In this document: positions 34,430 through 51,693 of the stretch, one piece after another
How the letters are laid out: each line of letters opens with the position of its first letter
Numbering within the stretch: position 1 is the stretch's first letter
Assembly: GCA_030682385.1 (NCBI GenBank)
Contig: JAUXOG010000024.1
Coordinates: 1-62,536 of the forward strand
Reading direction: 5' to 3'
DNA from: Bacteroidota bacterium
Lineage (GTDB): Bacteria; Bacteroidota; Ignavibacteria; UBA10030; BY39
DNA length: 62,536 nucleotides
Translations under genes and position numbers: made by a program
The notes under the pieces: generated by a model
What the model was told of the DNA's origin: nothing
Seen by the model: only the letters and a program-made list of their open reading frames with translations
Database searches by the model: none

Positions 34430-35557
34430 ATGAAAACAATTTACCATATCATCGTAAAAGAGTTTATTCAATTTCGTCGCGACAAGCGCATGATGGCTCT
34501 TTCGTTCATGGCGCCAATTCTACAATTGATTTTGCTTGGTTATGCGGCTACAACGGATGTGAAAGATGTTCCGATGGCGGTTTATAATCAGGATAAATCT
34601 GTTGCAAGCCGTGAATTAATAGATCAATTCGTTCACTCAGGATATTTCATTATTCAGAAAGATGTAAATTCGCTCGATGAAATCGATCATGAGATAGAAT
34701 TCGGAAATGTTTGGATGGCTTTAGTTATCCCTCCCGATTTTTCAAGTAATCTGCTGGCACGTAAAACAGCTTCGATCCAGATTCTGACGGATGGGAGCGA
34801 TGCCAATTCGGCGAATATCAGTCTCGGTTATGCATCGCAAATTATCAACACGTATTCAGGTTCGATCATAGCCGACATCCAAAAGCGTGTTCCGCTAGTA
34901 ACCCGACCGGCTCAGTTGCAGCCGGAAGTCAGAGTATGGTATAACCCTGATTTGAAAAGCCGGAATTTTATGGTACCCGGTGTGCTTGCTACAGTGTTGA
35001 TGATCATAACTATGACTTTGACTTCACTCGGAATCGTTAAAGAAAAAGAGATCGGAACACTCGAACAGCTAATGGTAACTCCTATAAAACCATATCAACT
35101 CATCATCGGTAAATTATTGCCATTTGCCATCATCGGTATGATTGATGTTGTTCTCGTTCTAATTGTCACCCGCTTCTGGTTTGCAGTACCTCTTCAAGGC
35201 AGTGTAGTGCTTCTTTTCGCTTTGAGTGGTTTATTTATAATGACAACGCTTGGTTTAGGGCTTTTTATATCAACCATATCCAAAACGCAACAACAGGCAA
35301 TGATGACGGCGCAGTTTTTTATTTTCCTGCCGTTTATTTATCTGTCGGGATTTACATTCCCGGTTGAGAATATGCCGCAAGCTATTCAATATCTCACAGC
35401 CATAATTCCTCTGAAGTACTTCATCGTAATAATCCGGGGAATCTTTTTGAAGGGTACAGGCATAGCGGAGTTATGGCCCCAGGCGCTTGCACTCTGGATT
35501 TTTGGCATCGTAATTCTAACGCTCAGCGTCATGCGATTTAAAACAAAACTAAGTTAA
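34430..35557 (+). CDS. ABC-2 type permease (YbhR-like)
   Basis: 375 residues with the same plan as its neighbour: EFIQFRRDKRMM at the N-terminus, an extracytoplasmic domain (about 45-175) and five C-terminal helices with VKEKEIGTLEQLMVTPIK. It is clearly paralogous to 33298-34428 and pairs with it as the membrane channel of the exporter. It starts 1 bp after that gene. Confidence 0.92.
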   Translation: MKTIYHIIVKEFIQFRRDKRMMALSFMAPILQLILLGYAATTDVKDVPMAVYNQDKSVASRELIDQFVHSGYFIIQKDVNSLDEIDHEIEFGNVWMALVIPPDFSSNLLARKTASIQILTDGSDANSANISLGYASQIINTYSGSIIADIQKRVPLVTRPAQLQPEVRVWYNPDLKSRNFMVPGVLATVLMIITMTLTSLGIVKEKEIGTLEQLMVTPIKPYQLIIGKLLPFAIIGMIDVVLVLIVTRFWFAVPLQGSVVLLFALSGLFIMTTLGLGLFISTISKTQQQAMMTAQFFIFLPFIYLSGFTFPVENMPQAIQYLTAIIPLKYFIVIIRGIFLKGTGIAELWPQALALWIFGIVILTLSVMRFKTKLS

Positions 35558-35578
35558 TTAAAAAAGAAAGGTTCACAG

Positions 35579-35968
35579 ATGAAAAAAACATTGTTCAGAA
35601 AAATAGCAGCGGGTATTGCAGTTATTTTCAGCATACTCACTACGGTTGATGGATTTCAAGTGTTGTTGGGTATAAGTAAACCCGATTACATTGTATTACA
35701 GCCGTTGTTAATTTATAATGTGATCATGGGAGTTGTTGGAGTGATTGTTGGAGTGATGCTGTGGCTCAATCGAGAAAGGGCGCTAAAGCTCGCGGTCATA
35801 GTTACATCAATGCACCTGATTGTACTGGCTCTCGTCAGCATGATGCATCTCGCTGGTGGAGCTGTTGCGCTGCATAGTGTAAAAGCAATGGGTTTGCGCT
35901 CAATAGTTTGGTTGGGAATCGTTTGGTTAACATGGATGTCGAAAAAACATTCTACAAATGTCGGATGA
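35579..35968 (+). CDS. Small four-helix membrane protein
   Basis: 129 residues with four hydrophobic segments and few charged residues (MGVVGVIVGVMLWLNRERAL, LKLAVIVTSMHLIVLALVSM). It lies 21 bp after the second permease and probably belongs to the exporter operon. No named family is recognised with confidence. Small proteins of this kind often accompany efflux permeases. Confidence 0.7.
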   Translation: MKKTLFRKIAAGIAVIFSILTTVDGFQVLLGISKPDYIVLQPLLIYNVIMGVVGVIVGVMLWLNRERALKLAVIVTSMHLIVLALVSMMHLAGGAVALHSVKAMGLRSIVWLGIVWLTWMSKKHSTNVG

Positions 35969-36063
35969 AACCATATTTAATCAAAATACTTTTGTTTGTT
36001 ATAGGGGTGTTCACATTAGCAGAAGAGCTATTTATTGTCCCCGCTTTAGTGAACATTCGATAA
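35965..36063 (+). CDS. Tiny membrane peptide overlapping the preceding gene (ATGA)
   Basis: A 32-residue frame, MKPYLIKILLFVIGVFTLAE and on to LVNIR, starts in an ATGA overlap with the previous stop. It is almost entirely hydrophobic. It may be a translationally coupled small protein, or the stump of an MFS transporter, whose first helix can look like this. Evidence is limited to the overlap and composition. Confidence 0.3.
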   Translation: MKPYLIKILLFVIGVFTLAEELFIVPALVNIR

Positions 36064-36153
36064 TTTGATTCCTAATCATCTCATTAAAACTTACACCAGA
36101 TCATTCAAAGCCATTAAGCCATTGTTCTCTAACGATGCAAGTACTTATGTTTA

Positions 36154-36182
36154 TTGATATTTATTGAATAAATTAGTATAAT
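36154..36182 (+). promoter_or_regulatory. Promoter with palindromic operator for the radical SAM/ABC cluster
   Basis: TTGATA (36154-36159) and TATAAT (36177-36182) are separated by 17 bp, a near-consensus -35/-10 pair 31 bp before the ATG at 36214. The spacer contains the palindrome ATTTATTGAATAAAT (36159-36173), a likely repressor site. Caveat: Bacteroidota often use a different housekeeping promoter, and the region is A+T-rich. Confidence 0.5.
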
Positions 36183-36213
36183 CACATGTCCTATAATTCA
36201 TAAAGATTTACGC

Positions 36214-37641
36214 ATGACGAAAGTTCAACTTATTCATCCCGGGAATGATGTAAAATACAAACATTTAAAGACTGGGTATTCGAGTTATCCTCCACCAAGC
36301 GGTCTGGAAATTATTGCTTCCTATGTAGAAAGGTGTATACCAAAGATAAGATTCGAAATATTTGATGGAAATGTCACTTCTCACAATGAAATACTACAAA
36401 GATTGGATGCAGATGTTGTGGGTATTACTGATTGGTTTACAAGTCATTCAAATGCAATGGAGATTGCCCGGGTAGCTAAAATTAAGAATCCGAATTCAAA
36501 AATCGTCATAGGTGGGCCTAACGCATCTAATCTTGGCGAACGTATTCTGCTTAACAATCCCGAAGTTGATTTTGTTGCATTTGCAGACGGAGAAAGAACG
36601 TTAACACAAATTATTCAAAATGATTCATCTGCAGAAATCAGGAATGTTTGGTTTCGGGGATCGGATCGTAAGATACATTTCTCAAGTGGTCCCGATATCA
36701 ATATTAACGATTTAGGCCTTTTTGATTTTGAGCATTTGTATGAAACAGACATGCGAAAATATGACTCCAAAGAAAAGTCATATTTTGATGAAATTGATAT
36801 GACCCCAATCCCAATTTCTTCGATACGAGGGTGTATCAAAGCTGTGAAATATGGCTCATGTACGTACTGCACTATTCCGATGACTAATGGTGTTCGCGTG
36901 ATGCAACCTAATCTTGTGTGGAGACAAATTCGTCACCTTTATGAAAAATATGGCATTCGCAAGTTCTTTGAGACTGGCGATAGTTTCACAATCGGAAATT
37001 ATCCTGAAAAGTTGTTAGAAGCAAAACCAAAGGATTTAGATGTCTCATTCAGAATTTACGCAAATCCTGATACAATTAGCCTAAAAAATATTTCGATACT
37101 CAAATCATTGGGGGTACAAGAAATATTTATCGGTATCGAAACAGTCGACAAGGATATTCTACAGCTAGCAAACAAAAACTATGACACATCGTCAATTGAA
37201 AAGACTGTTCAATTATTAGAAGAATATCAAATTCGAGTTTTTCTTCCCTTTCTATTTGGACTTCCTGGGGAGACCTACAACTCTGTAAATGGAAATTATG
37301 ACTTCGCGCAATATCTAATTTCGAAATATAGCAATATAGACCGACTACTTATTTCTTTGGCAATACCACTTATTGGTTCAAAATGGTTTGATACGCTACT
37401 CAAAGATGATGATATCGTAACTTGTTATAATGAAGGTGGGTTACGATCGCTTGCGACTGATGATAATATCGAATACGAGAGATTGTTTCTTTTATCACTT
37501 CATAAATATTGTCATTTATCCTTTGGTGATATTTATACTATATTACAGAAACCTCTATCACAAAACCTTAAAGGGAGAATTGGTGGGTTTGGTTGTTTGG
37601 AAAAATATGTTGTTGAATTAGAAAATGAAATTCTTGTTTAA
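36214..37641 (+). CDS. B12-binding-domain radical SAM protein with atypical cysteine motif
   Basis: 475 residues. Residues 1-150 have the Rossmann-like cobalamin-binding fold of class B radical SAM enzymes (PPPSGLEIIASYVE near 27, DVVGITDWF, VIGGPNASNLGE, FVAFADGE). The radical SAM core follows. The cluster cysteines are Cys207, Cys216 and Cys219, a CX8CX2C spacing instead of the usual CX3CX2C. The motif is introduced by SSIRGC, as is normal. Downstream are FETGDSF and FIGIETVD segments typical of the barrel. Such proteins methylate unactivated carbon or rearrange rings using S-adenosylmethionine. The gene opens a co-directional cluster with an importer and a HydE-like enzyme. The substrate is unknown. 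Confidence 0.85.
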   Translation: MTKVQLIHPGNDVKYKHLKTGYSSYPPPSGLEIIASYVERCIPKIRFEIFDGNVTSHNEILQRLDADVVGITDWFTSHSNAMEIARVAKIKNPNSKIVIGGPNASNLGERILLNNPEVDFVAFADGERTLTQIIQNDSSAEIRNVWFRGSDRKIHFSSGPDININDLGLFDFEHLYETDMRKYDSKEKSYFDEIDMTPIPISSIRGCIKAVKYGSCTYCTIPMTNGVRVMQPNLVWRQIRHLYEKYGIRKFFETGDSFTIGNYPEKLLEAKPKDLDVSFRIYANPDTISLKNISILKSLGVQEIFIGIETVDKDILQLANKNYDTSSIEKTVQLLEEYQIRVFLPFLFGLPGETYNSVNGNYDFAQYLISKYSNIDRLLISLAIPLIGSKWFDTLLKDDDIVTCYNEGGLRSLATDDNIEYERLFLLSLHKYCHLSFGDIYTILQKPLSQNLKGRIGGFGCLEKYVVELENEILV

Positions 37642-37656
37642 AATAGGAGATAGCCA

Positions 37657-38601
37657 ATGAAAAAAATATTTATTCTTCTCGTCTTAATTCTTTCAATTTC
37701 ATACTGGCAATGTACTAAGCAATCCAGTGAAATGACCATGATTAAGCTGGGTTATGCCCCAATCGCAGATGCAGCACAAATTTATGTAGGAATTGAAAAG
37801 GGATATTTTGCAGAGAATAGATTAAAAATTCAATTTGAACAACTAGGCAGTGGTGCAAAGATCCTCGAAGCTGTTGGTGCGGGAAGCGTCCAGATCGGAT
37901 TATCTAGTTATGTTCCCCTAATTCTTGCACGGGCGGCGGGTGTAGATTTAGTTGCTATATCAGGTGGGGCAGTTGAAGATTCTACACATTGGGAACATGC
38001 GTATGTTGTTAAATCAGATTCTAAGATCACATCTATTAAGGACATTGAAGATAAAACTCTTGCATTGAATGGTCTTCGGAACATCGATCACCTGTTGTTC
38101 CAGGAATTAATGGAAAAATACAATATCGATCAGACGAAGATTAGGCTTGTTGAAATCCCTTTTCCTCGGATGGAATCGGTGCTTCAATCGGGTGAAGTAG
38201 ATATAATTGCAGCCATTGAACCCTTTGTGACCAGAGCAATTTCACGAGGTAATTATCGAGTTCTCACATATAATTATCTTGAATTATACAAAAAAGTTCC
38301 GGTTGCATGTTATGTGGCTAAAAATAAATGGATAGAAGAAAATAATGACGTACTGACAAGATTTATAAATGCATTTAATAAAGCAACTGAATTTTGTCTC
38401 GCACATCCCGATTCGTTACGGGAAATAATTGGCAAATATACAAAACTTAGTTCTGATGAACTTCAGAAAATTAGCCTACCAACTTTCAGTTTCGAGACTG
38501 ATAAGGTTGACCTCCAAGGCTTAATAGATAGAATGCAAAAAAGAAATATGTTATCAAGAAAAGTTTCAGCAGAAGAAATGATTCATCTTTACAACAAATG
38601 A
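37657..38601 (+). CDS. NMT1/TauA-type ABC substrate-binding lipoprotein
   Basis: 314 residues. A lipoprotein signal ends at YWQC (Cys near 19). The mature domain is the two-lobe fold of the NitT/TauT/ThiY family: IKLGYAPIADAAQIYVGIEKGYF at the start (quoted parts IKLGYAPIADAAQ and GIEKGYF), then VQIGLSSYVPLILARAAG and VDIIAAIEPFVTRA. Members bind sulfonates, nitrate, bicarbonate, pyrimidine precursors or aromatic acids. AGGAGA precedes the start. The ATPase and permease follow directly with overlaps. The flanking radical SAM genes suggest that the imported compound is a precursor or product of their chemistry. Confidence 0.9.
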   Translation: MKKIFILLVLILSISYWQCTKQSSEMTMIKLGYAPIADAAQIYVGIEKGYFAENRLKIQFEQLGSGAKILEAVGAGSVQIGLSSYVPLILARAAGVDLVAISGGAVEDSTHWEHAYVVKSDSKITSIKDIEDKTLALNGLRNIDHLLFQELMEKYNIDQTKIRLVEIPFPRMESVLQSGEVDIIAAIEPFVTRAISRGNYRVLTYNYLELYKKVPVACYVAKNKWIEENNDVLTRFINAFNKATEFCLAHPDSLREIIGKYTKLSSDELQKISLPTFSFETDKVDLQGLIDRMQKRNMLSRKVSAEEMIHLYNK

Positions 38602-39371
38602 ATACTGCTCTAGAAATTGCTTCTGTTGGAAAGACATTCAACGAAGATAGTCTTTCTCCAACTGTCGCCATCGGATCAATTACCTTTGACGTCCGAGAGG
38701 GGGAATTTATTTCTATCCTTGGCCCATCTGGTTGTGGAAAGACAACACTCCTTAGAATAATCGCTGGACTTATTCAACCAACGAGTGGTCAGGTGCATAT
38801 TAAAACCGATAGTACCGAACGAAATCTAATGTTGGTTTTTCAAGAGTATAATCGCTCATTATTTCCGTGGAGAACAGTTGCAAAGAACATATCATTTGGT
38901 CTTGAAGTAAGTGGTTCTTCCCCAAAGGAATTAGCGAAGAGAGTTGATGAATATATTAATCTGGTAGGCTTGAAGGGATTTGAAAATCATTATCCATGGG
39001 AATTGTCCGGTGGTATGCAACAGCGAACTGCGATTGCCAGAGCTCTCGCTTGCCATCCGAATTTACTCCTTATGGATGAACCATTTGGTTCGTTGGATGC
39101 TTTGAGCCGTAATGAATTAGAAGATGACTTATTAAGATTGTGGAAACAAGCAAGTATTACAATCTTATTCGTTACACATGACATTGATGAAGCAATATAT
39201 CTGTCTGACCGCATAATAGTTCTCTCCCAGCGTCCTTCGAAGGTCGAAGATATCATTTTAGTGGAGTTACCTCGCCCACGTCATCAGGTTGAGAGTAGAA
39301 GTTCCAACAAATTTATTGAATATCGATCTAAAATTAGTAGGCTTCTGGGGAGGGGAAAAGCACGTGAATAG
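38598..39371 (+). CDS. NitT/TauT-family ABC importer ATPase
   Basis: 257 residues. Walker A is GPSGCGKTT, the Q-loop VFQEYNRSLFPW, the signature LSGGMQQR, Walker B LLLMDEPFGSLD and the H-loop VTHDIDEA. This is the SsuB/TauB/ThiZ class that powers nutrient uptake. ATG overlaps the preceding stop (ATGA at 38598-38601), and the permease start lies inside its last codons, so the three genes are coupled. Confidence 0.93.
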   Translation: MNTALEIASVGKTFNEDSLSPTVAIGSITFDVREGEFISILGPSGCGKTTLLRIIAGLIQPTSGQVHIKTDSTERNLMLVFQEYNRSLFPWRTVAKNISFGLEVSGSSPKELAKRVDEYINLVGLKGFENHYPWELSGGMQQRTAIARALACHPNLLLMDEPFGSLDALSRNELEDDLLRLWKQASITILFVTHDIDEAIYLSDRIIVLSQRPSKVEDIILVELPRPRHQVESRSSNKFIEYRSKISRLLGRGKARE

Positions 39372-40140
39372 AATAGGAATTGGAAAACTTTCGGGCTTCG
39401 CTTTAATTATAGCTCTGTTACTTATATGGGAGTTACTTTCAAGATATTCATTCATAGATTCAGTATTCTTCCCGCCATTATCTACAGTTATTTATGCATT
39501 GATGACAGAAATAAATTCACAAAACATTTGGATTGACATAAGTTCAACATTGGCAAGGTGTTTTTCTGGGTACATTATTGCAATCACTATAGGAATTCCA
39601 GTTGGAATACTTATGGGTAGATCCCAAAGAATTTACAATTTATTTGAACCACTCGTTGAAATTCTTCGCCCAATTCCTTCAGCAGCTATCATACCGGTTG
39701 CGATTCTCTTTCTAGGTATTGAAGATAAGATGAAAATCTTTGTAATTGTTTTTGCCTGCATCTGGCCTATCTTAATAAATACTATCGATGGGGTTAAAAG
39801 TATCGATCGAATACTTATCGAAACCGGAAATACTTTCCGGCTTAATCGGAACCAGTTTTTATTGAGAATAGTTTTACCCGCTTCATCTCCCAACATCGTA
39901 ACGGGAATGAGAATCAGTCTTGCAATATCTTTAATATTAGCAATAACAGTTGAGATGATATCAGGTAACAACGGAATTGGGTTCTTTATTTTGGATGCTG
40001 AGAGAAGTTTCAAATTTCCGCAAATGTACTCAGGTATCATCATGATCGGTATGATAGGATATATAATTAATTGGGGATTTGTTAAACTCACGAACAGGGT
40101 AATGAAATGGCATCGCGGTTTTACGGCAACTCTTGTCTAA
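39364..40140 (+). CDS. NitT/TauT-family ABC importer permease
   Basis: 258 residues from GTG 39364, chosen because GGAGGGG stands just upstream and the product then begins at the usual short N-terminus. A longer ATG frame from 39289 would lie inside the ATPase gene. It has about six helices and the binding-protein-dependent permease EAA region (IETGNTFRLNRNQFLLRIVLP, with the second part SSPNIVTGMRISLAISLILA). It forms the membrane channel with the ATPase and receives substrate from the lipoprotein at 37657. Confidence 0.9.
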   Translation: MNRIGIGKLSGFALIIALLLIWELLSRYSFIDSVFFPPLSTVIYALMTEINSQNIWIDISSTLARCFSGYIIAITIGIPVGILMGRSQRIYNLFEPLVEILRPIPSAAIIPVAILFLGIEDKMKIFVIVFACIWPILINTIDGVKSIDRILIETGNTFRLNRNQFLLRIVLPASSPNIVTGMRISLAISLILAITVEMISGNNGIGFFILDAERSFKFPQMYSGIIMIGMIGYIINWGFVKLTNRVMKWHRGFTATLV

Positions 40141-40161
40141 TTTTCGATTAAAGGAGATATA

Positions 40162-41475
40162 ATGCGAAATTATCATAAACCATTTTTATTTGCTATCATA
40201 ATAACATTATTTATTCTTTTTATTGGAGCGATTATTGGGTTCATTTGTCCTTTCCTTTGCTTTGATTCTATCCCTCTGGGTATCATAGCATTAACAAGTG
40301 GTCTCGCTCTTGTAATCTATTGGTTTACAGTAATCTCTCTGTTTCGTCAAGATAGAAGTTGCGGGTTTAATACCGAGTTTTTTAATGGCTATCATTTGTA
40401 TTGGTTTTTCAAGATTCCTCTAATTGCTCGTTATAAGAACAAAAAATATATCGTTATGCTTTATTCTATAATGATGACTTGCATAATATTTTCGTTCTCA
40501 GTACTTACAACAGCTTGTATAATTGGATTGAAACAAATTGGCGAACCATCTCCACAGAATAATCCACTGAGTTTTCTTCACAGTCAGGGTGCCATTGTTT
40601 CCTTTATCGTCATTTGTATCACCATGTATTCCTTTATTAATACAATGATAATTCGAGCAACTTATGATCGGGAGATAGAATCATTGGAGGAGTTATTGTC
40701 TATCATGAAAGAAAAGTTAAATCTAAAAGAGAACTCTAAGAATTGGAATATGTTTGACAAATTATTCTATTACGTTTTTGATCATACAATTGCAACCGGC
40801 CATATTTCCAACCATGATCGATTTCTGGATTATGCTAAGGAACTCTATAGTTTCCTTCACTATTATCATAAAAAAATAGTGTTTATGGGTTTAGTCTATT
40901 CAGGGCAAAAGAATATAGAAACCTATAAATCTTTTGCAAAAGATAAAATCGAAGAAAGAATCAAATCAGAAACAGTGGGCAAAGTAGGTGATGAGAAAGA
41001 GAAAACCATTAAGAAAATTATAGAGGATGAAGCAACTAAAAAATTCTTACCCGCACATGATGAATTTGTGTATTTTCTGAATCATACTGACGTTAGGACA
41101 GTCAATCATTCTATGGTTGGAACAGAAAATAATGAAGTGTTTAAGATACTGTACAAACCATATAGAAAAGAAAATCATAAAATTATTGATCCTTTTTTCA
41201 AAGAGATCTTACATCTGAATGAGCTGCCCAAGCCGGGAGATTATGAAATTAACGATAACGAGTTGCCTGAGAAATCTAGTATTATCAGTACTGAAGAACT
41301 TGGATTAACTCGATTCATTGTAACAAATCTCTATGTCATACAGTTCATTGCAACAAAGAATAATGGCATGAAAAATGGCGAGAAAAACGTGCCAACGGGT
41401 TACATATCTGAAGACATTACAGTAATAGAGAGATACAAACGAGCGTTTGAGAATTACCGTGAAACCCATCGCTGA
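40162..41475 (+). CDS. Unrecognised membrane protein with large cytosolic domain
   Basis: 437 residues. Four hydrophobic helices occupy the first 160 residues (about 8-32, 36-60, 90-118 and 130-155). The remaining 275 residues are soluble and highly charged, with a Lys/Glu-rich helical stretch near 255-300 (IEERIKSETVGKVGDEKEKT). No domain family is recognised. AAAGGAG precedes the start. It lies between the importer and the HydE-like gene, all in one direction and with its end overlapping the next gene, so it is probably part of the same pathway, perhaps as a scaffold or signalling component. That role is inference. Confidence 0.75.
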   Translation: MRNYHKPFLFAIIITLFILFIGAIIGFICPFLCFDSIPLGIIALTSGLALVIYWFTVISLFRQDRSCGFNTEFFNGYHLYWFFKIPLIARYKNKKYIVMLYSIMMTCIIFSFSVLTTACIIGLKQIGEPSPQNNPLSFLHSQGAIVSFIVICITMYSFINTMIIRATYDREIESLEELLSIMKEKLNLKENSKNWNMFDKLFYYVFDHTIATGHISNHDRFLDYAKELYSFLHYYHKKIVFMGLVYSGQKNIETYKSFAKDKIEERIKSETVGKVGDEKEKTIKKIIEDEATKKFLPAHDEFVYFLNHTDVRTVNHSMVGTENNEVFKILYKPYRKENHKIIDPFFKEILHLNELPKPGDYEINDNELPEKSSIISTEELGLTRFIVTNLYVIQFIATKNNGMKNGEKNVPTGYISEDITVIERYKRAFENYRETHR

Positions 41476-42499
41476 AAACCCACTTCTCCATAGTATGCAA
41501 GCTTCGGAGATGTTTTTGCAGAAAATATCACCAGGCTCAAACCCAAATACTGAATTAGTCGTTTCTTCGGAAGGGGGTGTTAACCGGCAACTCTTTAAAT
41601 CGGCAGTCAATATCAGAACACAACATTTTGGCAATGAAGTCTATCCGCGGGGAGTCGTTGAAATTTCAAATTACTGCAATCTTAATTGTTTGTACTGTGG
41701 AATGCGGAAAGATAATCTTACCATAAACCGGTATCGATTGGGCCACAATGAAATAGTCCAAATCGCTTTATCAATGGAGCAACACGGTATCAAGAGTATT
41801 ATGCTTCAATCTGGAGATGATTACACATATCCGATTGCATCTCTCGTGAAAACCGTCCATGCAATAAGAAAGGAAACGGATTTGCGTGTGATTTTGTGTC
41901 TTGGTGAGCGAAAACGAGCTGATCTTGAGGCAATGCTAAAAGCAGGTGCAAATATGTATGTGTTAAAACTTGAAACCCCTAATCCAATCCTTTTTCAGAA
42001 ACTACGTCCATCTACAACTTTTGAACGGCGATTAAATCAACTGAAATTTATGAAAAAGATCGGTTACCAGATTAGCAGTGGATTCATTGTTGGTCTTCCA
42101 GAGCAAACCCATCATGAGATATTTGAGGGTCTAATGTTATTGAAGGATTTAAGGGTGGATGCTGCAAGTGTTAGCCCCTTTATTCCAAATGAGGGATCGC
42201 CTTTAAAGAATGAGCCATTTGGCAGTCTAGAGTTGTCTCTTTATTTCTTAGCTCAAATGAGAATTCATCTTCAAGGAGTTTATATCCCTGCTGTTTCCGC
42301 ATTCTCACTTTTACACAAAGACGGTCAAGCATTGGCAATGAATGCTGGTGCAAATGTAATAACCATCAACTTTACTCCTAAAACCAACGCAAAACAGTAT
42401 CTGATGTATAGCGAAAAAAGAAATCCTGTATCTTTGGAAAGGGCCAGAGAATTAATTTTATCGTTGGGAATGACAAGCAGTATCCTACAAATTAATTAG
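41459..42499 (+). CDS. HydE/BioB-family radical SAM enzyme
   Basis: 346 residues from GTG 41459 (a TTG at 41447 would add four). The cluster motif is CNLNCLYC (Cys73, Cys77, Cys80). The barrel then follows HydE closely: MLQSGDD, ILCLGERKRADLEAMLKAGA, KLETPNPILFQKLRPSTTFE, GFIVGLPEQT, SPFIPNEGSPL and NAGANVITINFTP. HydE acts in assembly of the [FeFe]-hydrogenase cofactor, and the related PylB and BioB rearrange or sulfurate small molecules. No hydF, hydG or hydrogenase gene is near, so hydrogenase maturation is not supported by context. With the B12 radical SAM and importer it suggests a small-molecule salvage or biosynthesis pathway. Confidence 0.87.
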   Translation: MKPIAENPLLHSMQASEMFLQKISPGSNPNTELVVSSEGGVNRQLFKSAVNIRTQHFGNEVYPRGVVEISNYCNLNCLYCGMRKDNLTINRYRLGHNEIVQIALSMEQHGIKSIMLQSGDDYTYPIASLVKTVHAIRKETDLRVILCLGERKRADLEAMLKAGANMYVLKLETPNPILFQKLRPSTTFERRLNQLKFMKKIGYQISSGFIVGLPEQTHHEIFEGLMLLKDLRVDAASVSPFIPNEGSPLKNEPFGSLELSLYFLAQMRIHLQGVYIPAVSAFSLLHKDGQALAMNAGANVITINFTPKTNAKQYLMYSEKRNPVSLERARELILSLGMTSSILQIN

Positions 42500-42753
42500 C
42501 CATATCATATCAAATGGGGAGCTTTCATTCAAAGCAATGAGATGGCAACAAGCACGAAGGTTTACTGTAGTCAGTAAAAATATCAAATTATAATACTACT
42601 GATTTTGCTATTACTTATCCGGAACAACCGCCAATATGCGTTCGTGGTTGATCTGCTTCAATCGTTTATTTTTTTTTGTTTGCCCAATTGTTTGTTAATT
42701 GCCAATCATTAACAGTGTCTGTTATTACGAATTCGTTAGTTATTTATCATTTT
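42500..42753. other. Intergenic region between radical SAM cluster and oxidoreductase block
   Basis: About 250 A+T-rich bases lie between convergent genes. No gene, terminator hairpin with a T-run, or trace of the LamG gene interrupted at 46057 was found. ATTGTTTGTTAATTGCCAAT is a weak inverted pattern near 42689. Confidence 0.4.
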
Positions 42754-43707
42754 TTAATTTATTTTGATGCCTATTTTCCCGGCAATTTTTCCTGATTCCA
42801 TGTGCTTATGCGCTTGTGAAAGGTCTTTCCATGGGTATATTTTTTCTATTACAGGTTTTATTTTTCCCGACTGAATTAGTTTGCTCAAACCTTCTAGAAT
42901 TTTTCCTTCTGTCTTTACAATAAATGGAATAGTTTTTCTGGATGAAAAAAGATTTGACAATTTCATTAAGGGAAATTTCATGGGGTTATCGGCTATAACT
43001 ATGGATTTCCCACCGGGCTTGAGAAGTTTTTTCAATTGCCTAAACCCAATTCCTCTTACACAATTTAATATGACATCATACCTTTCAGTTGTATTCAAAA
43101 TATTCTGCTTCTTGTAATCAATTATCTTTTCTGCGCCTAATTGTTTTGCAAGGTCAATTCTCTCTGTACTGCAAACCGCTGTTACTTCGGCGCCAAAATA
43201 TTTTGCTACCTGTATGGCATAAGTACCTACACCGCCTGATGCTCCATTTATTAATACCAGCATTCCTTTCTTAACGGGGGCATGAACCGTGAATGCCTCA
43301 TAAACCGTCATACCGACACCGGGTACAGTTCCGGCTTCTGTGATATTCAAATTATCAGGGATTAGCGCTGCAAACGATTGGGGGATGGCAGCAAATTCAC
43401 CATACCCGCCATTGCGATGAATACCAAGGAAAGCATACACATTATCTCCAACTTTAAATCTGCTTACTGCTCTTCCGGTTTCAACAACTTTACCGCTTAC
43501 ATCCACACCAAGTACTGCGGGCAGCTTTAACCGCACAAAACTTTTCAGCAAACCCCGCCTGATGCCGGCATCCACCGGATTAACACTTGAACCGAAAACT
43601 TTTACAAGTATTTCATCACCTTTTATTTTTGGTGTTTCAATTTCTCCAAAATAAAATACATCAGGTGTTCCATATTGATTGATAAGTATTGCTTTCATAG
43701 TTTTCAT
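42754..43707 (-). CDS. Zinc-independent MDR oxidoreductase (quinone-reductase-like)
   Basis: 317 residues (MKAILINQYG at 43698 is an equally likely start). It has the medium-chain dehydrogenase/reductase plan: N-terminal GroES-like domain (GSSVNPVDAGIRRG, VLGVDVSGKVVETG), a nucleotide-binding Rossmann fold with NGASGGVGTYAIQVAKYFGA near 155, and a C-terminal cap. The cysteine and histidine ligands of catalytic zinc are absent, as in NADPH-dependent quinone reductases and enoyl reductases. It is last in a minus-strand group of three NAD(P)-dependent enzymes under an AraC regulator. Confidence 0.88.
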   Translation of the reverse strand: MKTMKAILINQYGTPDVFYFGEIETPKIKGDEILVKVFGSSVNPVDAGIRRGLLKSFVRLKLPAVLGVDVSGKVVETGRAVSRFKVGDNVYAFLGIHRNGGYGEFAAIPQSFAALIPDNLNITEAGTVPGVGMTVYEAFTVHAPVKKGMLVLINGASGGVGTYAIQVAKYFGAEVTAVCSTERIDLAKQLGAEKIIDYKKQNILNTTERYDVILNCVRGIGFRQLKKLLKPGGKSIVIADNPMKFPLMKLSNLFSSRKTIPFIVKTEGKILEGLSKLIQSGKIKPVIEKIYPWKDLSQAHKHMESGKIAGKIGIKIN

Positions 43708-43716
43708 TTTTTGCGT

Positions 43717-44412
43717 TCAACTTACTATTTTAAAATTGAAAGCTCCGTTTTGCGTAGCTCCCCAAATTCTTAACCAAACAGGCAATACAGCTTCAGTTCC
43801 TCTTGCCGAACTGATGTCGCCAAGGTCAAGAATGTTTTCATTCTTCCAGCCAAATTCGTTCATCAGGGATTTTACTTTTGCTTTTGCATCGGCATCATTG
43901 CCGCAGATAAATGCTGTATGGTTTCCACCGCCAATCATATTCGGGTTCACCATTAAACCACACCACATTGTATTCAGTGTTTTTACAACTTTTGCTTGCG
44001 GAAAAGTTTTTTGAATTTCTTCGCCCAACGAATTTGTGTTGGATAATTCAGGAACTAAACAAGGTGGCATTCCTTTAGTAAAATCCAAAGGATTGGCAAC
44101 ATCCATCAGAATTTTGCCATTCAGATTTTTTGCATCTGCCAATTTCAAAGCGTTGATTGAATTTGCACCTTGCGTAACATTCAAAACAATTTCTCCGAAA
44201 GCTGCTGCCTCTGCGAATGTTCCTAATTTTACATTTTTGTTTTGTGCATACCATTCATTGAATGGCGGATTGCCGTAGCCGTCTTTTGCGGCGCTGGCTA
44301 ATTTTTCCGACACATTTCGTGTGCCCATCATTACATCGTAACCAAGTGTAATGAGCTTGGAAGCGAAGGTCTGCCCAACGGTTCCTGTTCCGATAATTGC
44401 GATTTTTTTCAT
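43717..44412 (-). CDS. NADP/F420-type reductase-like NAD(P)-binding protein
   Basis: 231 residues. The dinucleotide fold IIGTGTVGQTFASKLITLGY starts at residue 5, and MGTRN follows, pointing to NADP. The fold matches the F420-dependent NADP oxidoreductase family (PF03807), with VANPLDFTKGMPP and TLNTMWCGLMVNP. Members in bacteria lacking F420 appear to be NADPH-dependent reductases of unknown substrate. The gene lies 9 bp upstream of the MDR gene, in the AraC-linked group. Confidence 0.85.
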   Translation of the reverse strand: MKKIAIIGTGTVGQTFASKLITLGYDVMMGTRNVSEKLASAAKDGYGNPPFNEWYAQNKNVKLGTFAEAAAFGEIVLNVTQGANSINALKLADAKNLNGKILMDVANPLDFTKGMPPCLVPELSNTNSLGEEIQKTFPQAKVVKTLNTMWCGLMVNPNMIGGGNHTAFICGNDADAKAKVKSLMNEFGWKNENILDLGDISSARGTEAVLPVWLRIWGATQNGAFNFKIVS

Positions 44413-44450
44413 TGTTGTTTTGCTTTCTTTTAATTATTAAATTCTCTTTT

Positions 44451-45080
44451 TCAATAAGTTAGCGTTGGCGTTTTCCTTAACCATTCATTTGAGTTTAATT
44501 GCTTTAGCATAAAATGTGCAAGGTCGGCTCTTGATATTTTTGAACCGCCTTTCGGTGCATACCGTGCAGATACCCTGTAAATTCCCGTAAGCGGTTTATC
44601 AATCAATTGTGAAGGACGAACAATAATCCAATCAATCTCACTTACTGATTGAAGATAGCTTTCCAATTTTTTCATATCGTTATATGGCTTGCGCAACAAG
44701 CGTTTGAAAATGAGTTTATAAATAAATTCAAACGAAGGGTCGTCATCTTCGACACCGCCAGAGGTGAGGCAGATGAATTTTTTTACACCACCTTTTCGCA
44801 TTGCTTCAATAATGTATTTTCCACTTTCTGAATAAAGAGAAGTGTCTTTAAAACTTTGCCCGATGCCCAATGCCGATAAAACGACATCGTGCCCCTTTAA
44901 ATTATTTTCAAAAGTTGATGGAACTAAAGCATCTGCTTTTATCACTGTTAAATCAGAATGCGATTGTGTAAAATTTTCAGGATTACGCACAAAGGCGGTT
45001 ACTTTATATCCTTTTTCTAATGCTTGCTGAACTACAAGTTTTCCTGTTGGTCCGCTTGCACCGAATACTGCGATTTTCAT
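44451..45080 (-). CDS. Atypical short-chain dehydrogenase (NAD(P)H-binding)
   Basis: 209 residues from ATG 45080. A longer ATG at 45122 adds fourteen residues before the Rossmann start and is less likely. The glycine motif is GASGPTGKLV, with FVRNPE and VLSALGIG following as in NAD(P)H-binding PF13460 proteins (biliverdin reductase B or NmrA-like). It lacks the Tyr-x-x-x-Lys catalytic pair of classic SDRs. It is first of the three oxidoreductase genes after the AraC gene. Confidence 0.85.
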   Translation of the reverse strand: MKIAVFGASGPTGKLVVQQALEKGYKVTAFVRNPENFTQSHSDLTVIKADALVPSTFENNLKGHDVVLSALGIGQSFKDTSLYSESGKYIIEAMRKGGVKKFICLTSGGVEDDDPSFEFIYKLIFKRLLRKPYNDMKKLESYLQSVSEIDWIIVRPSQLIDKPLTGIYRVSARYAPKGGSKISRADLAHFMLKQLNSNEWLRKTPTLTY

Positions 45081-45177
45081 CTTTATCTGTATTTTGTTGT
45101 TAATAAAATTTTGACGATACAAATATACAGAGACTACTACTATGGGTAAAGGTCAAAAACTTGGTTGTAATGGTAAA

Positions 45178-46056
45178 TTACTTTTTCCTTGCTTGTTTCC
45201 TGAACTCAAGGGGAGTAAGTTCAGCGTGTTTCTTGAAGAATTTCCCAAAGTTGGCAGGGTCTGAAAAATTCAGTCGATAAGCAATTTCAGCAATATCATA
45301 TTCGGTAAATTGAATAAGCGATTTTGCTTCGCTCATTAATCTTTCATTAATAAACGACAGAGCATTTTTATCTGATGCTGATTTTACTGATTGCGAAAGA
45401 TGATTGGGGGTAACAAAAAGCAATGCAGCGTATTCTTCAACGGTTCGTTTTTCTAGGTAGTAGTTATTGACAAGTTGGATGAATTTTTTTAATAATATTT
45501 GCTGCGGTGTTGTAAACCCTTCTTCCCACTGATTGAATGCGGTTGTAAATTCCTTTAACTGATAAAGGAGTGCAAGAAGTTTTACTGTCGCTATTTTGTG
45601 TTGATCGTCGGTTGAATTTTCATAAGCTGTAAAAACCTCCTCCAAAAAAGGAGCGAAGTTCTTGAATTTTGATTGATTTAGTTTGAAAAAATTGGTGTGT
45701 AGGATATTGAAAAACGGAAACTCTTTTTCAAAATCTGGTTTGAAAAAAGAAAGACATTCCTTTTTGAAATAAATCAGGTAACCATTTGCCGTATTATCCC
45801 TGTAAAAACTATACAATAGTCCGGGCGCTTGAAAAACCAAAAAAGAATTGAGATTGGTAACATTGGTGTTGTCGTATGTAATTTTTGTTTGACCCACATT
45901 ATTAACCAGAGCAATGAAATAAAAGTCTTTCCTAAAAGGCGGTTTGTAATTGTTAATTGAGCCTTCATTTGCTTTTAGTCTGAGGCAATAGAAATTCGGG
46001 TTTGAAGTCCGGTAGTCAGCGGAAATGGATGAAAGAAAATCATTGATTTCTTTCAA
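45178..46056 (-). CDS. AraC-family transcriptional regulator
   Basis: 292 residues. The C-terminal pair of helix-turn-helix motifs is clear: TVEEYAALLFVTPNHLSQSVKSA and then YDIAEIAYRLNFSDPANFGKFFKKH (quoted parts AALLFVTPNHLSQ and YDIAEIAYRLNFSD). The N-terminal half is a cupin-like ligand domain. It is on the same strand as three NAD(P)-dependent enzymes and probably controls them. Its ATG lies at 46056, and DNA immediately beyond is the broken end of a LamG gene, so no native promoter region is evident. This supports recent insertion or rearrangement. Confidence 0.88.
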   Translation of the reverse strand: MKEINDFLSSISADYRTSNPNFYCLRLKANEGSINNYKPPFRKDFYFIALVNNVGQTKITYDNTNVTNLNSFLVFQAPGLLYSFYRDNTANGYLIYFKKECLSFFKPDFEKEFPFFNILHTNFFKLNQSKFKNFAPFLEEVFTAYENSTDDQHKIATVKLLALLYQLKEFTTAFNQWEEGFTTPQQILLKKFIQLVNNYYLEKRTVEEYAALLFVTPNHLSQSVKSASDKNALSFINERLMSEAKSLIQFTEYDIAEIAYRLNFSDPANFGKFFKKHAELTPLEFRKQARKK

Positions 46057-46058
46057 AT

Positions 46059-46781
46059 CTTATTGGTCGCTGGTGTTTTAACGAAGGAACAGGCACAATT
46101 GTCAATGGCGGCGCAGGAACAACATTCGCGGGTACAATTATGGGTTCCGGTTCAAGTTGGACGACAGATCATCCTTTACCTGTACAGATTTCGTTATTCG
46201 AAGCAGATGTAGTTGACAACAACAGTGTGAAACTTAATTGGACAACAATTGCTGAAGTTAATAATTATGGTTTTTATGTAGAGCGCTGCAATGAGAATGA
46301 AATAAATTATACACTAATTCCAAATAGTTTTATTGCTGGTCATGGTAGTACTTTGGAGCCACATTCCTACACATTTACAGACAATACCATAACATCATCG
46401 GGTGTTTATTGTTACCGATTGCAGCAAATCGATAACGATGGTTTAATTCACTATTATGGACCGATTGTGGTATCATTCAACCCTATGGATGTTAAGGATG
46501 GTCTAACTGTACCAGCAGTATATAAGTTAAATCAAAATTATCCGAATCCATTTAATCCGACAACAAAGATCAGTTTCAGTCTTGAAAAATCAGGATACAC
46601 AACTTTAAAATTACACAACGTAATGGGACAGGAAATTGAAACATTGTTCAACAAGGAAGCTGAAGCAGGTAAGTTATATGTGATTAATCTGGATGCAAAT
46701 AAACTCAGCAGCGGAATATATTTCATTCGATTAACAAGTGGATCATTCAATGATTTCAGAAAAATTGTAATGATTAAATAG
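46059..46781 (+). pseudogene. T9SS LamG protein, 3' fragment (5' part lost)
   Basis: The frame is open from 46047 and recognisably homologous from 46059: LIGRWCFNEGTGTIVNGGAG aligns with the end of LamG domains in the next gene (LVGRWGLDEGTGTN). An ATG at 46140 is internal. The remaining part has a fibronectin-like region and the T9SS tail (YKLNQNYPNPFNPTTKISFS to the final IVMIK). No signal peptide or first LamG domain exists, and the AraC gene starts 3 bp away on the other strand. It is best read as a truncated gene. An AT-rich hairpin (46781-46798) follows the stop. Confidence 0.8.
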
Positions 46782-46846
46782 AAATTTGGTTAAATTTCTA
46801 TATAAAATAAGAAATTAAATATTAATAATTTGTAGATAGGAATTAT

Positions 46847-49621
46847 ATGAAAAGGTATGTTTTGATTTTAGTCTATATCATGTCATTGATCATAGCGACA
46901 AATTTTGTATTAGCTCAGACTGGGCTACAATTTGATGGAACAAACGATTACGTAACGTTCGGTTCGGCAACAAGCACGCTGGGTGCCCAGAGGTTCACAC
47001 TTGAGTGTTGGTTCAAGTGGACTGGGGGAGGAGCCACCACATCAACGGGGACCGGAGGTCTTTCGACCGTGATCCCTCTTGTCACTAAAGGGCGAGGAGA
47101 AGCAGATGGCAGCAATGTAGATATGAATTATTTTTTAGGTATTCAGGGCGGTAAGTTAGCAGCAGATTTTGAAGATATAGATGCAGCTGCAATCGATGGG
47201 GATCTTGCTGGACAGAACCAACCAATCCTAGGAACAATTACAATTACTACCAACGTTTGGCATCATGCTGCTGCAACCTTTGACGGAACTAATTGGAGAT
47301 TATACCTTGATGGTGTATTAGATAATAGCTTGGATGTTACTAATCCAGGATATACACCACCAAGACCACAATTTAACAGTATTCAACACGCAGGGCTTGG
47401 TACTGCTATGACATCAGCCCCCGCTGCGGGTGGTTACTTTGCGGGAGTATTAGACGAAGCACGCATCTGGAATTACGCACGTACTCAACAACAAATTCAG
47501 GATAGTATGAATGTTGAAATCACTTCATCAATGGGTGGCTTGTTAGGTCGTTGGGGTTTGAATGATGGAACTGGAACCTCTGCCGGTAATACTATTTCTG
47601 GTAGTCCTGCGGGCACACTAACAAATGGACCAACATGGGTAGCAGGCAATCCCGGTTTTCCCCCTCCTCCACCTCCAGCCGCACCGAGTGGATTAGCTGC
47701 AACAGCAGTGTTACATACACAAATCAATTTATCTTGGACTGATAATTCCAGTAATGAAACCACGTTCGAATTAGAACGATCAACGACTGGATCGAGTGGG
47801 CCTTTCTCGTTAATTGCAACTCTAAGTCCAAATACGATTTCTTATAATAATACCGGTTTAACAGCACTTACTGAATATTGGTACCGTGTTAGAGCTGTAA
47901 ACCCGGGAGGGAACTCCGCTTATAGTAATGTAGCTAATGATACAACCCCTGATGGATCTTCAACAGAGTATGCGCTGGATTTTGGTGGAACGAATTCTTA
48001 CGTTACATTTGGTACAGCATCAAGCGTAGGAGTAGCTAATTTCACGATCGAGTGTTGGTTTAAGAAAAAAGGTACAGGAAGAACAACTTATACCGGCACA
48101 GGCGGAATAACTGCCGTGCCTCTTGTGTCCAAAGGACGCTTTGAAACAGATGGAAGCACCGTCGATATGAATTATTTCTTTGGGCTCGATGGCGCGACCA
48201 ATGTCTTAGCCGCTGATTTCGAGGAAGGAACTGGCTCGACTACTCCAGGCTTGAACCATCCATTCTTTGGTTCAACACCAATCACTAACGACGTTTGGTA
48301 TCATGCAGCGGTAACTTATGATACAACACTAAAAAGATGGCAGCTCTACTTAAATGGAGTTTTAGAGAACGAGGAATTTGTTACTTCGGGTTCAAGGTTT
48401 CCACAATTTAACAGCATACAACATGCTGCACTCGGGACTGCAATGAATTCAAGTGGTGTTGATTCTGGGAAATTTTATGGTACATTGGACGAAGTACGTA
48501 TCTGGAATTATGCTCGTACAGTAGATCAAATCCTTAACGATATCAACACACAAATAAATACTCCACGAACCGGACTTGTTGGGAGATGGGGGTTGGACGA
48601 AGGCACGGGCACAAATGTCTATGGAGGAGCTGGGACTACCGTTAATGGAACAATTCAAGGCACGAACTACTCGTGGGTAGGCGGTGCACCGTTCAATTTA
48701 CCAAACCCACCGGCAATTCCTCCTGCCGCACCAACAAATCTCGTTTCAGGAGGAGTCTCCAGTAATTCAGTGTTAGTAAGCTGGACGGATAATTCGAATA
48801 ATGAAACTAATTTTCAAGTTGAACGCTCAACAACCGGTAGTAGCGGTCCTTTCACATTGATTGGGACTGTAGGCGTCAACAGAAATTATTATACTGATAC
48901 TGATGTTTCTGCAGAAACACATTATTATTATAGAGTCCGTGCGACTAACACATATGGGAACTCAATTTACAGTAATGTGCTTCACGTACTTACACCCTCT
49001 TTTCAAAACAATGCCGTTAATTTTGATGCCAGTAGCTGCTACGTTACCTTCGGAACAGGGACTGCGTTGAATACACCGACATTTACTGTGGAGACTTGGT
49101 TTAAAAGAACCGGGGCTGGAGTTTCTGTAACAACTGGCACCGGAGGAGTACCGGATGCTATTCCTTTGATAGCAAAAGGAACTTCCGAAACTGAGGATGT
49201 TACTAAAGACATAAATTATTTTCTCGCAATAAAATCAGCGACTAATACCTTGTGTGCAGATTTTGAAGAAGGCAGCACAGGAAGTTCTCCGAGTCTAAAC
49301 CATCCCGTTATTGGTGTAACACCAATTTCTCTTAACAAGTGGTACCATGCTGCGGTTACTTATGACGGCTCTACATGGCGATTGTATTTAAACGGTAAGT
49401 TAGAAACCGAACTTTTTGTTGGACAACCTACTGGTTCGGCTACAACATCTCCCGTTTCACTCGCGACATCCATTCAATCCAACGGAACAACAGCTCAGGG
49501 ATATTTCTACGGTGTAATGGATGAAGCCCGGATATGGAATTATGCCCGAACACAATCGCAAATCCTATCTACAATAAACTCACAAATTAGCACTGCGCAA
49601 AGCGGTTTAATTGCGTGTTGA
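46847..49621 (+). CDS. T9SS LamG/FN3 surface protein, N-terminal part ending at a premature TGA
   Basis: 924 residues. The signal peptide is cut near VLAQTG (about 26). Three concanavalin-like LamG domains (about 27-255, 375-610 and 720-924) alternate with two fibronectin type III domains. Each LamG ends in a GxxGRWGLN/DxGTG motif. In the third domain the motif reads IAC then TGA (49619-49621), where homologues have R-W-G, so Trp became stop and the preceding Arg became Cys. The frame continues without shift as the 49625 gene, which supplies the phosphoesterase and sorting domains. Without read-through the protein lacks its T9SS signal and would not be anchored. Confidence 0.82.
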   Translation: MKRYVLILVYIMSLIIATNFVLAQTGLQFDGTNDYVTFGSATSTLGAQRFTLECWFKWTGGGATTSTGTGGLSTVIPLVTKGRGEADGSNVDMNYFLGIQGGKLAADFEDIDAAAIDGDLAGQNQPILGTITITTNVWHHAAATFDGTNWRLYLDGVLDNSLDVTNPGYTPPRPQFNSIQHAGLGTAMTSAPAAGGYFAGVLDEARIWNYARTQQQIQDSMNVEITSSMGGLLGRWGLNDGTGTSAGNTISGSPAGTLTNGPTWVAGNPGFPPPPPPAAPSGLAATAVLHTQINLSWTDNSSNETTFELERSTTGSSGPFSLIATLSPNTISYNNTGLTALTEYWYRVRAVNPGGNSAYSNVANDTTPDGSSTEYALDFGGTNSYVTFGTASSVGVANFTIECWFKKKGTGRTTYTGTGGITAVPLVSKGRFETDGSTVDMNYFFGLDGATNVLAADFEEGTGSTTPGLNHPFFGSTPITNDVWYHAAVTYDTTLKRWQLYLNGVLENEEFVTSGSRFPQFNSIQHAALGTAMNSSGVDSGKFYGTLDEVRIWNYARTVDQILNDINTQINTPRTGLVGRWGLDEGTGTNVYGGAGTTVNGTIQGTNYSWVGGAPFNLPNPPAIPPAAPTNLVSGGVSSNSVLVSWTDNSNNETNFQVERSTTGSSGPFTLIGTVGVNRNYYTDTDVSAETHYYYRVRATNTYGNSIYSNVLHVLTPSFQNNAVNFDASSCYVTFGTGTALNTPTFTVETWFKRTGAGVSVTTGTGGVPDAIPLIAKGTSETEDVTKDINYFLAIKSATNTLCADFEEGSTGSSPSLNHPVIGVTPISLNKWYHAAVTYDGSTWRLYLNGKLETELFVGQPTGSATTSPVSLATSIQSNGTTAQGYFYGVMDEARIWNYARTQSQILSTINSQISTAQSGLIAC

Positions 49622-49624
49622 GGA

Positions 49625-51493
49625 ATGAATGAGGGGACAGGGTCAACTGTTTATGATTCATCGGGTTCTGCGGTTAATGGAACTATTTCTGGTACCGGCT
49701 GGAACTGGACTGTTGGAAGTCCTTTTAATGTAAATTTTTCTCCCTCAACCCCTACATTAATTTCTCCATCGAACGGGGCTTCTGACGTAACTACAACACC
49801 GACATTAAGTTTATCCGTTTCAGATCCGAATCAAGATGATCTTACTGTAAAATTTTATGGACGGGCATTGCCAGGTACACTCACCCCAACACCTTTCACT
49901 ATCGTTGTTCTTCCCGATGCACAGTACTATACCTCGCATAAGAACGGGGGAACTAACGCACTATTCAAAGCGCAAACACAATGGATTGTTAATAATAAGG
50001 TAGATAAAAATATTGTTTATGTTTCTCACGTGGGGGACGTTGTGGAAGATGGAGATACATATATTATACAATGGCAGCGTGCAGATACTACAATGAGTAT
50101 TCTCGAAAATCCTACTCCCGGAATTCCGTATGGCATTGCGATTGGGAATCATGACCAGATCGGTGGTACGACGTTCTATAATCAATACTTCGGTGTTTCA
50201 CGTTTTGCCGGTCGCCCATACTTCGGTGGTAATTACGGCTCCAATAATAATAATAATTTTCAAGTATTCTCAGCGAGTGGTATGAGCTTTATTGCAATTA
50301 ACTTGGAATACAATCGCAGTGCGGCGGCTTTGCGTTGGGCAGATAGTTTGCTCAAGTCAGACATTACTCGGCGGGGGATTGTAATAAGCCACGATATTCT
50401 CGGTACGGGTAATCCGGGCGCTTTTTCAAGCCAAGGACAGGTTACGTACGATTCATTGAAAGATAATCCCAATCTGTTTTTATTGCTCTGCGGACACGTG
50501 CCCGGCGAAGGTAGAAGGATGGATGTATATAACGGCGATACTGTATTTACAGTGTTGGCGGATTACCAGAATCTCACGAACGGTGGTAACGGTTGGTTAC
50601 GAATAATGGAATTTTCTCCTGCTAGTAATCAAATACAAATTAAAACTTATTCTCCTACCCTCGACCAGTATAACACTGCTTCAAGCAGCCAGTTTAATTT
50701 GACATACAGTATGCAAGATACAAATTATCATTTAATTGATACTAAAAGTAGTATTCTTTCCGGGTCTTCTGTTTCAACAACTTGGACTGGTCTCGAAAGA
50801 TTAACTCAGTATCAGTGGTATGTTACAATTAATGATGGAGACTCAACTACTACGGGACCTGTATGGAGTTTTATTACAGAGGATATTCCAGTTCCAATAC
50901 AACTAGCTTCATTGACTGCTTCCATAGAGCAAAATAGTAACGATGTGCTGATTCAATGGTCAACTATAAGCGAAATAAATAATTATGGTTTCTACGTTCA
51001 AAGACGCAGCGACAATCAGCCATCGTTTACGGATGTCGAAAACAGTTTCACTCAGGGAAATGGTACAACACTCGAACCTCAATCATATACGTTCAAGGAT
51101 AATACTGTTGTAACTCCCGGAATTTATCATTATCGTTTGCGTCAGCTTGATAACGATGGATTAGAACATTTTACTTTTAGTGTTAGCATTAATGTCTCAA
51201 TGTTATCCGTTTCTGAAACCGTTCCGTTAGAATTTCGGTTATACCAGAACTATCCAAACCCGTTTAACCCGGTAACAAAATTGAATTTCAGTCTTGAAAA
51301 ATCCGGTTACACGACTCTCAAAGTATATAACATACTCGGTCAGGCGGTAAGGACATTATTTGAAGCAAACGCTGAAGCCGGAAAATTGTACGTTGTTAAC
51401 TTCGATGCCTCTAACCTACCGAGTGGTTTATATTTTTATAAATTGCAAAGTGGAAATAATGTTGAAATTAAAAAAATGGTTCTCATGAAATAA
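49625..51493 (+). CDS. T9SS metallophosphoesterase, C-terminal part of the split LamG protein
   Basis: 622 residues in the same frame as the gene ending at 49621, so the two were very probably one protein of 1548 residues. After the end of the LamG domain and a linker comes a calcineurin-like phosphoesterase: VLPDAQYY, HVGDVVEDG, GNHDQIGG, SHDILG and CGHVPGEG carry the Asp, Asn and His metal ligands. Then come an FN3-like region and the sorting tail (LYQNYPNPFNPVTKLNFS to the final VLMK). It has no signal peptide of its own, so as a separate product it would stay in the cytoplasm. Confidence 0.85.
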   Translation: MNEGTGSTVYDSSGSAVNGTISGTGWNWTVGSPFNVNFSPSTPTLISPSNGASDVTTTPTLSLSVSDPNQDDLTVKFYGRALPGTLTPTPFTIVVLPDAQYYTSHKNGGTNALFKAQTQWIVNNKVDKNIVYVSHVGDVVEDGDTYIIQWQRADTTMSILENPTPGIPYGIAIGNHDQIGGTTFYNQYFGVSRFAGRPYFGGNYGSNNNNNFQVFSASGMSFIAINLEYNRSAAALRWADSLLKSDITRRGIVISHDILGTGNPGAFSSQGQVTYDSLKDNPNLFLLLCGHVPGEGRRMDVYNGDTVFTVLADYQNLTNGGNGWLRIMEFSPASNQIQIKTYSPTLDQYNTASSSQFNLTYSMQDTNYHLIDTKSSILSGSSVSTTWTGLERLTQYQWYVTINDGDSTTTGPVWSFITEDIPVPIQLASLTASIEQNSNDVLIQWSTISEINNYGFYVQRRSDNQPSFTDVENSFTQGNGTTLEPQSYTFKDNTVVTPGIYHYRLRQLDNDGLEHFTFSVSINVSMLSVSETVPLEFRLYQNYPNPFNPVTKLNFSLEKSGYTTLKVYNILGQAVRTLFEANAEAGKLYVVNFDASNLPSGLYFYKLQSGNNVEIKKMVLMK

Positions 51494-51500
51494 ATAAAAA

Positions 51501-51571: not shown

Positions 51572-51693
51572 ATATTTAAGATAATTCGTAACCTGTACAA
51601 ACTATATAAAATAAATTTTTGTGGATTGACAGAATCTTTAAATAAACTAATTAACAAACATAATCAAAAACTAATTTAAAAAGGAGTTACAAA

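Follow-up and report, generated by a model that had tools for sequence, protein, structure and literature searches.

A six-gene cluster combining a HydG-less HydE-fold protein, a B12-binding radical SAM protein and a NitT/TauT-type importer in an Ignavibacteria genome

Gene content and layout of the cluster

A stretch of 62,536 bp from the Bacteroidota bacterium assembly GCA_030682385.1 (Ignavibacteria; UBA10030; BY39), i.e. positions 1 to 62,536 of the forward strand of contig JAUXOG010000024.1 (hereafter the window), was analysed for a cluster encoding two different radical S-adenosylmethionine (SAM) proteins, an ATP-binding cassette (ABC) importer of the NitT/TauT type and an orphan membrane protein. 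Six co-directional, tightly packed genes had been read from the sequence alone in an earlier description made by a model (the original prediction), and all six were recovered in the same place on the forward strand, between 36214 and 42499 (Table 1). The spacings between them were 15, -4, -8, 21 and -29 bases when the permease was taken to start at GTG 39364, which is most likely its start rather than the upstream TTG. The gene for the HydE-like protein starts with TTG, with a GTG at 41459 as an alternative.

The predicted promoter with a palindromic spacer was the best such site of the region, with 11/12 matches to the consensus. As a class, promoter-like sites were not more numerous than expected by chance (26 in the region vs 29.0 ± 5.9 in shuffled sequences), and the palindrome amounts to TTTATT-G-AATAAA, with arms entirely of A/T. 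An Rfam scan of positions 35500–43000 returned no RNA family, riboswitches included.

Table 1. Features of the six-gene cluster, in positions of the window.
Feature	Position	Strand	Basis
Promoter-like site TTGATA-17-TATAAT, spacer with 6+1+6 A/T palindrome	36154..36182	+	Motif scan
B12-binding radical SAM protein, 475 aa, cluster motif CX8CX2C (CIKAVKYGSCTYC)	36214..37641	+	Pfam/NCBIfam domains, motif
NitT/TauT-type (NMT1/SsuA-like) substrate-binding protein, 314 aa, signal peptide	37657..38601	+	Pfam/NCBIfam
NitT/TauT-type ABC transporter ATPase, 257 aa; 4-base overlap with binding-protein gene	38598..39371	+	Pfam/NCBIfam
ABC transporter permease, 258 aa, GTG start; 8-base overlap with ATPase gene	39364..40140	+	Pfam/NCBIfam
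Orphan protein, 437 aa: about four hydrophobic helices (read from sequence), then soluble domain	40162..41475	+	No relative found
HydE-fold radical SAM protein, 350 aa, non-canonical HydE group; 29-base overlap with orphan gene	41447..42499	+	Profile, tree, signature residues, model

The HydE-fold protein and its relatives without HydG

The best named model for the product of the last gene was HydE (TIGR03956), with 246.3 bits under the cut-off of 254.6, and the protein was 38% identical to Thermotoga maritima HydE. It carries the CX3CX2C cluster motif of radical SAM enzymes and the lid motif YxxY of HydE (YLMY in the window protein). Its structure model (predicted local distance difference test score, pLDDT, 87.5; residues 1–43 of low confidence) was superimposed on T. 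maritima HydE with a Z-score of 44.9 and a root-mean-square deviation of 1.6–2.1 Å over 311–324 residues (1.6 Å over 311 for 3ciw). Methylornithine synthase (PylB) and BioB, which share the common HydE/BioB/PylB fold group with the window protein, gave Z-scores of 36.7 and about 34, respectively, and the protein was far under their profile cut-offs (157 bits vs 348.2 for PylB, 93.8 vs 225 for BioB). As judged from the model, the protein has the HydE fold, probably with an altered substrate pocket.

A maximum-likelihood tree calculated from 105 proteins separated all 87 canonical HydE proteins from the window protein by a branch supported at 100/98. On the other side of that branch, the exact neighbour of the window protein is unsure, given the length of its own branch. 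Grouping with true HydE, which the original prediction had named as the outcome speaking against its proposal, was thus not observed. One candidate orthologue, from Ignavibacteriales SURF_24 (L087), was rejected as it fell in the canonical clade of the tree.

On the basis of residue comparisons, the window protein and two further groups of relatives (groups B and C, 18 proteins in all) shared signature residues distinct from those of canonical HydE. Ser 284 and Thr 306 were present in 18/18, when the canonical proteins carried Thr and Met, respectively, each in 83 of 87. Position 283 was Val or Ile in 17/18 (Thr in 78/87 canonical proteins), and the His of the canonical [RK]HET motif, which is Leu 175 in the window protein, was missing in 17/18 and present in 74/87. 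The window protein accordingly reads KLET, VSA and TIN at the canonical [RK]HET, TTA and MPN signatures (in context, LKLET vs RHET/KHET and AVSA vs ATTA). These residues would line the substrate pocket.

Neither HydG nor HydF gave a match over cut-off in the source genome, which is 99.7% complete, and the same profile search detected both in two control genomes of the class (G274 and G285). In a survey of 197 members of the class, the only HydE-family proteins were at most 40% identical to the window protein, the best of them adjoining HydG, and sixty close relatives contained only remote radical SAM matches. Maturase HydE acts on an organometallic iron-cysteine complex, and to our knowledge HydE is known only from hydrogenase maturation. 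Canonical HydE tracks HydF nearly perfectly, in 189/189 genomes at the best profiling depth (PMC3226654). Being under the profile cut-off, outside the canonical clade, divergent in its signature residues and without HydG or HydF, the window protein is disfavoured as a hydrogenase maturation protein, which agrees with the original remark that no hydrogenase gene accompanies the cluster.

Groups B and C also scored just under the HydE cut-off (208.8–253.7 bits). HydG or HydF was encoded nearby in 0/17 of their loci (0/18 with the window), against one or both in 51/87 canonical loci, the lengths of the flanks varying by locus. Group B comprised Verrucomicrobia and a betaproteobacterium, with ketosynthase, AMP-ligase, glycosyltransferase and lipid-type genes as neighbours; the loci (L078, L082, L086, L093, L109, L116, L120, L122, L137 and L148) look like an aryl-polyene-like or lipid cluster. 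Group C comprised cyanobacteria, Methylococcaceae, Chromatiaceae, Methanothrix and Bradyrhizobium, the Bradyrhizobium protein being assigned by its neighbours because its own branch was too long to place in the tree. Partners in group C were a HemN-like radical SAM protein (7/7 loci), a methyltransferase-like protein (six loci) and a CpxP/LTXXQ-like periplasmic protein (five loci). A DMT transporter was present in at least two of these loci (L062, L071, L072, L077, L088, L091 and L102), and the cluster is conserved from cyanobacteria through alpha- and gammaproteobacteria to an archaeon bin. Group C thus resembles the window in the signature residues and in the pairing of the HydE-like protein with a second radical SAM enzyme, and differs in that the partner is HemN-like, not B12-type, with methyltransferase-like and CpxP/LTXXQ-like neighbours where the window has a NitT importer.

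The most useful result of the analysis is this set of HydE-fold proteins just under the HydE cut-off, which is HydG-less and distinct from maturase HydE. No description of this kind of HydE-like protein was found in the open-access literature, though other papers may exist. We tentatively propose that the HydG/HydF-independent HydE-fold enzymes form a separate family of unknown chemistry, in at least three lineages and usually with specialised partner enzymes, one member of which the present operon would couple, in a pathway not described before, to a dedicated importer and a B12-dependent radical SAM enzyme. A HydE-fold group without HydG and HydF, occurring in aerobic, phototrophic and anaerobic organisms, must act on another substrate; finding that substrate would show in what way the HydE barrel was reused, and proteins scoring close to the HydE cut-off would no longer be misnamed by automatic annotation. 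An experimental handle is offered by the operon, because its binding protein can be screened directly for the ligand.

The B12-binding protein, the importer and the orphan protein

The product of the first gene is a cobalamin-dependent radical SAM protein by its B12-binding (PF02310, 43.9 bits, cut-off 32.1) and Radical_SAM (PF04055, 64 bits, cut-off 29.5) domains. It matched no named equivalog, the best named model being TIGR03975, a C-methyltransferase in the maturation of ribosomally synthesised and post-translationally modified peptides (94.7 bits vs cut-off 281.85), and the comparison with solved structures gave nothing above a weak level. Methylation is the commonest reaction among this class of enzymes.

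The CX8CX2C cluster motif was common to the B12 protein and four relatives. The closest relative (168 bits, 29–30% identity) was found in another genome of the same class (G1230, locus L186), in an operon encoding LivG, LivF, a Peripla_BP_6 binding protein, the B12 protein, an AAA+ protein, LivH and LivM. The likeness to the window consists of the cluster spacing, the sequence identity and the location inside an ABC importer operon, and the differences are the Liv-type importer, the RtcR-like AAA+ partner and the absence of a HydE-like gene. With the window, this makes two occurrences of the CX8CX2C subgroup within ABC importer operons of unrelated importers, two cases being few. At L186:6288-14319, the B12-radical SAM and RtcR-like genes lie between the binding protein and the permeases, with conjugation-type and antirestriction-type genes upstream, and the pair is on a probable mobile element.

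Two verrucomicrobial relatives (L162 and L163) adjoin a FeeM-like N-acyl amino acid synthase (acyl transferase), a methyltransferase and a hybrid kinase. In these loci (L162:8019-10886 and L163:5302-8165), which look like a signal-molecule system, the acyl transferase of L163 is fused to the B12-radical SAM protein and the kinase is a large hybrid histidine kinase. Another relative (L187), encoded at the end of its contig, follows a type I restriction locus. Rhizobial and other plasmid matches of B12 type were rejected as the same system, their contexts being different.

Searches with the B12 protein returned no orthologous cluster in 395 genomes of the phylum, 361 of the class (overlapping draws), 349 of Pseudomonadota and 241 of Verrucomicrobiota, and pattern scans of the genome_contigs and viral_contigs collections, which need short exact peptides, returned no relative. 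Query alignments included artificial rows, solely for steering the choice of pattern.

The three importer genes together encode a NitT/TauT-type system, i.e. an NMT1/SsuA-type binding protein (NMT1, 105.7 bits vs cut-off 20.5), an ABC ATPase and a permease with a BPD_transp_1 domain. The binding protein is SsuA-like and under the cut-off of that family (SsuA_fam, 124.2 bits vs 163.5), so the importer was not assigned to the aliphatic sulfonate type SsuABC and no sulfonate substrate is claimed. The original prediction had called it a lipoprotein: the signal peptide is present, and the lipid anchor is not certain because the sequence around the Cys, SYWQC, departs from the standard lipobox. For the ATPase and the permease, the best named models were those of the Sao transporter (SaoA and SaoP, NCBIfam), from which they differ by scores well under the cut-offs (239.5/360 and 158.9/295, respectively) and by the lack of Sao selenoproteins in the cluster.

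The orphan protein had no match in Pfam or NCBIfam and no relative in plasmids, 355 genomes of the phylum, Pfam or PDB sequences, and its structure model (pLDDT 42) was useless.

Origin and proposed function of the cluster

The window was 90–93% identical to a genome of the same genus (G001) up to position 35960, with a weak match to 36017, and gene order resumed at 53960. The cluster starts about 130 bases past the synteny break at 36017, and the third-codon-position G+C content (GC3) of its genes was 0.28–0.35, against 0.39 ± 0.03 in resident genes. Because of the synteny break and the lower GC3, the cluster looks acquired; horizontal acquisition is likely, with loss in G001 as the alternative.

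We regard the cluster, tentatively, as a horizontally acquired module for importing and remodelling a small molecule. The NitT/TauT-type importer would bring in a small organic molecule, probably anionic, and its combination with two radical enzymes suggests that the molecule is remodelled under low oxygen, both enzymes being of an oxygen-sensitive kind. For the B12 protein, a radical methylation that depends on cobalamin, or a radical reaction akin to it, is most likely. The HydE-like protein, with signature residues in its HydE/PylB-type barrel unlike those of the H-cluster maturase, would react through a 5'-deoxyadenosyl radical; as it belongs to a separate group without hydrogenase partners, it therefore probably remodels the imported small molecule in an undescribed way. 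The membrane protein, at a guess, might anchor, sense or regulate. A single pathway for all six genes, the direction of transport, and the types and order of the reactions are what we infer; the tight co-directional packing with overlaps, the domain content and the relative of the B12 protein inside a Liv-type importer operon speak for such a module. The salvage or biosynthesis of an imported molecule, as originally put forward, stays a plausible reading of these data.

A comparable arrangement is known from Rhodobacter capsulatus, in which anaerobic use of isethionate requires both the SsuABC importer and the radical SAM-dependent enzyme set IsrBHDK (PMC11423573). There, too, a NitT/TauT-type importer and a radical SAM protein serve one anaerobic assimilation pathway; the differences are the nitrogenase-like HDK proteins, the resemblance of IsrB to BciD, and the lack of a HydE-like or a B12 protein (PMC11423573).

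Several points weigh against import and remodelling by one module. Neither enzyme has a known catalytic function, the B12 protein being without a named equivalog; NitT-type importers often adjoin unrelated genes; and elsewhere each of the two enzymes has different partners. Four or more of the genes together in other genomes, which the original prediction had named as support for a system, were not seen: none of the other genomes sampled was found to contain the whole set of six, in searches that were limited and in part confined to the matches listed. The functional link of the six genes therefore rests on the layout in one genome. Relatives of both enzymes do recur in comparable settings, the HydE-like protein with a second radical SAM protein in the seven group C loci and the B12 kind in another ABC importer operon.

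These same settings bear on the other explanations. A biosynthetic cluster, with a cofactor, signal or natural product made by the radical enzymes and with the importer bringing in a precursor or recovering that product, is rather unlikely: the ketosynthase, AMP-ligase and lipid-type genes around group B, the HemN-like and methyltransferase-like partners in group C, and the FeeM-like synthase and methyltransferase beside L162/L163 are all in its favour, but the six-gene set is without a ligase, synthase, exporter or carrier protein. We give somewhat less credence still to an accidental meeting of two or three unrelated modules (the importer, the B12 enzyme and the HydE-like enzyme) in a variable region, for which the position in an approximately 18 kb region missing from its syntenic place in the same-genus genome, the other partners of each enzyme elsewhere and the failure to find a conserved set would speak; the overlaps and short gaps linking all six genes, and the recurrence of the enzyme kinds in analogous pairings, argue against it. 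A radical SAM-containing module for anti-phage defence or stress is very improbable. One relative of the B12 protein does follow a type I restriction locus and another, on what is probably a mobile element, adjoins an RtcR-like AAA+ protein, but the PADLOC models matched were a generic ATPase and a weak radical SAM only, and an importer with metabolic enzymes fits defence poorly. A remnant or variant of [FeFe]-hydrogenase maturation, with the HydE-like protein as HydE itself, is hardly credible: the identity and near-identical fold shared with T. maritima HydE, and a score so close to the cut-off, are outweighed by the missing HydG and HydF in a nearly complete genome, the position outside the canonical clade and the differing signature residues.

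Further observations concern the surroundings of the cluster. Window positions 36018–53959 (about 18 kb) were not at the syntenic place in G001, which holds other genes there (patatin-like and others). A 4.3 kb insert in G001 is flanked by direct copies (L174:1920-2017 and L174:6312-6466) of the end of a 129-aa gene (window 35863–35960), as if it had come in with a duplication. At window 46847–51493, the frame of a LamG-repeat protein closes at 49621 and is followed from 49625 by a second frame in which the repeats continue; a stop or frameshift has probably divided a single gene here. Window 3846–5435, with parts of a type I restriction locus on either side, encodes an AlbA-type protein in which GGVNGGVS-like repeats follow one another close to the C-terminal part.

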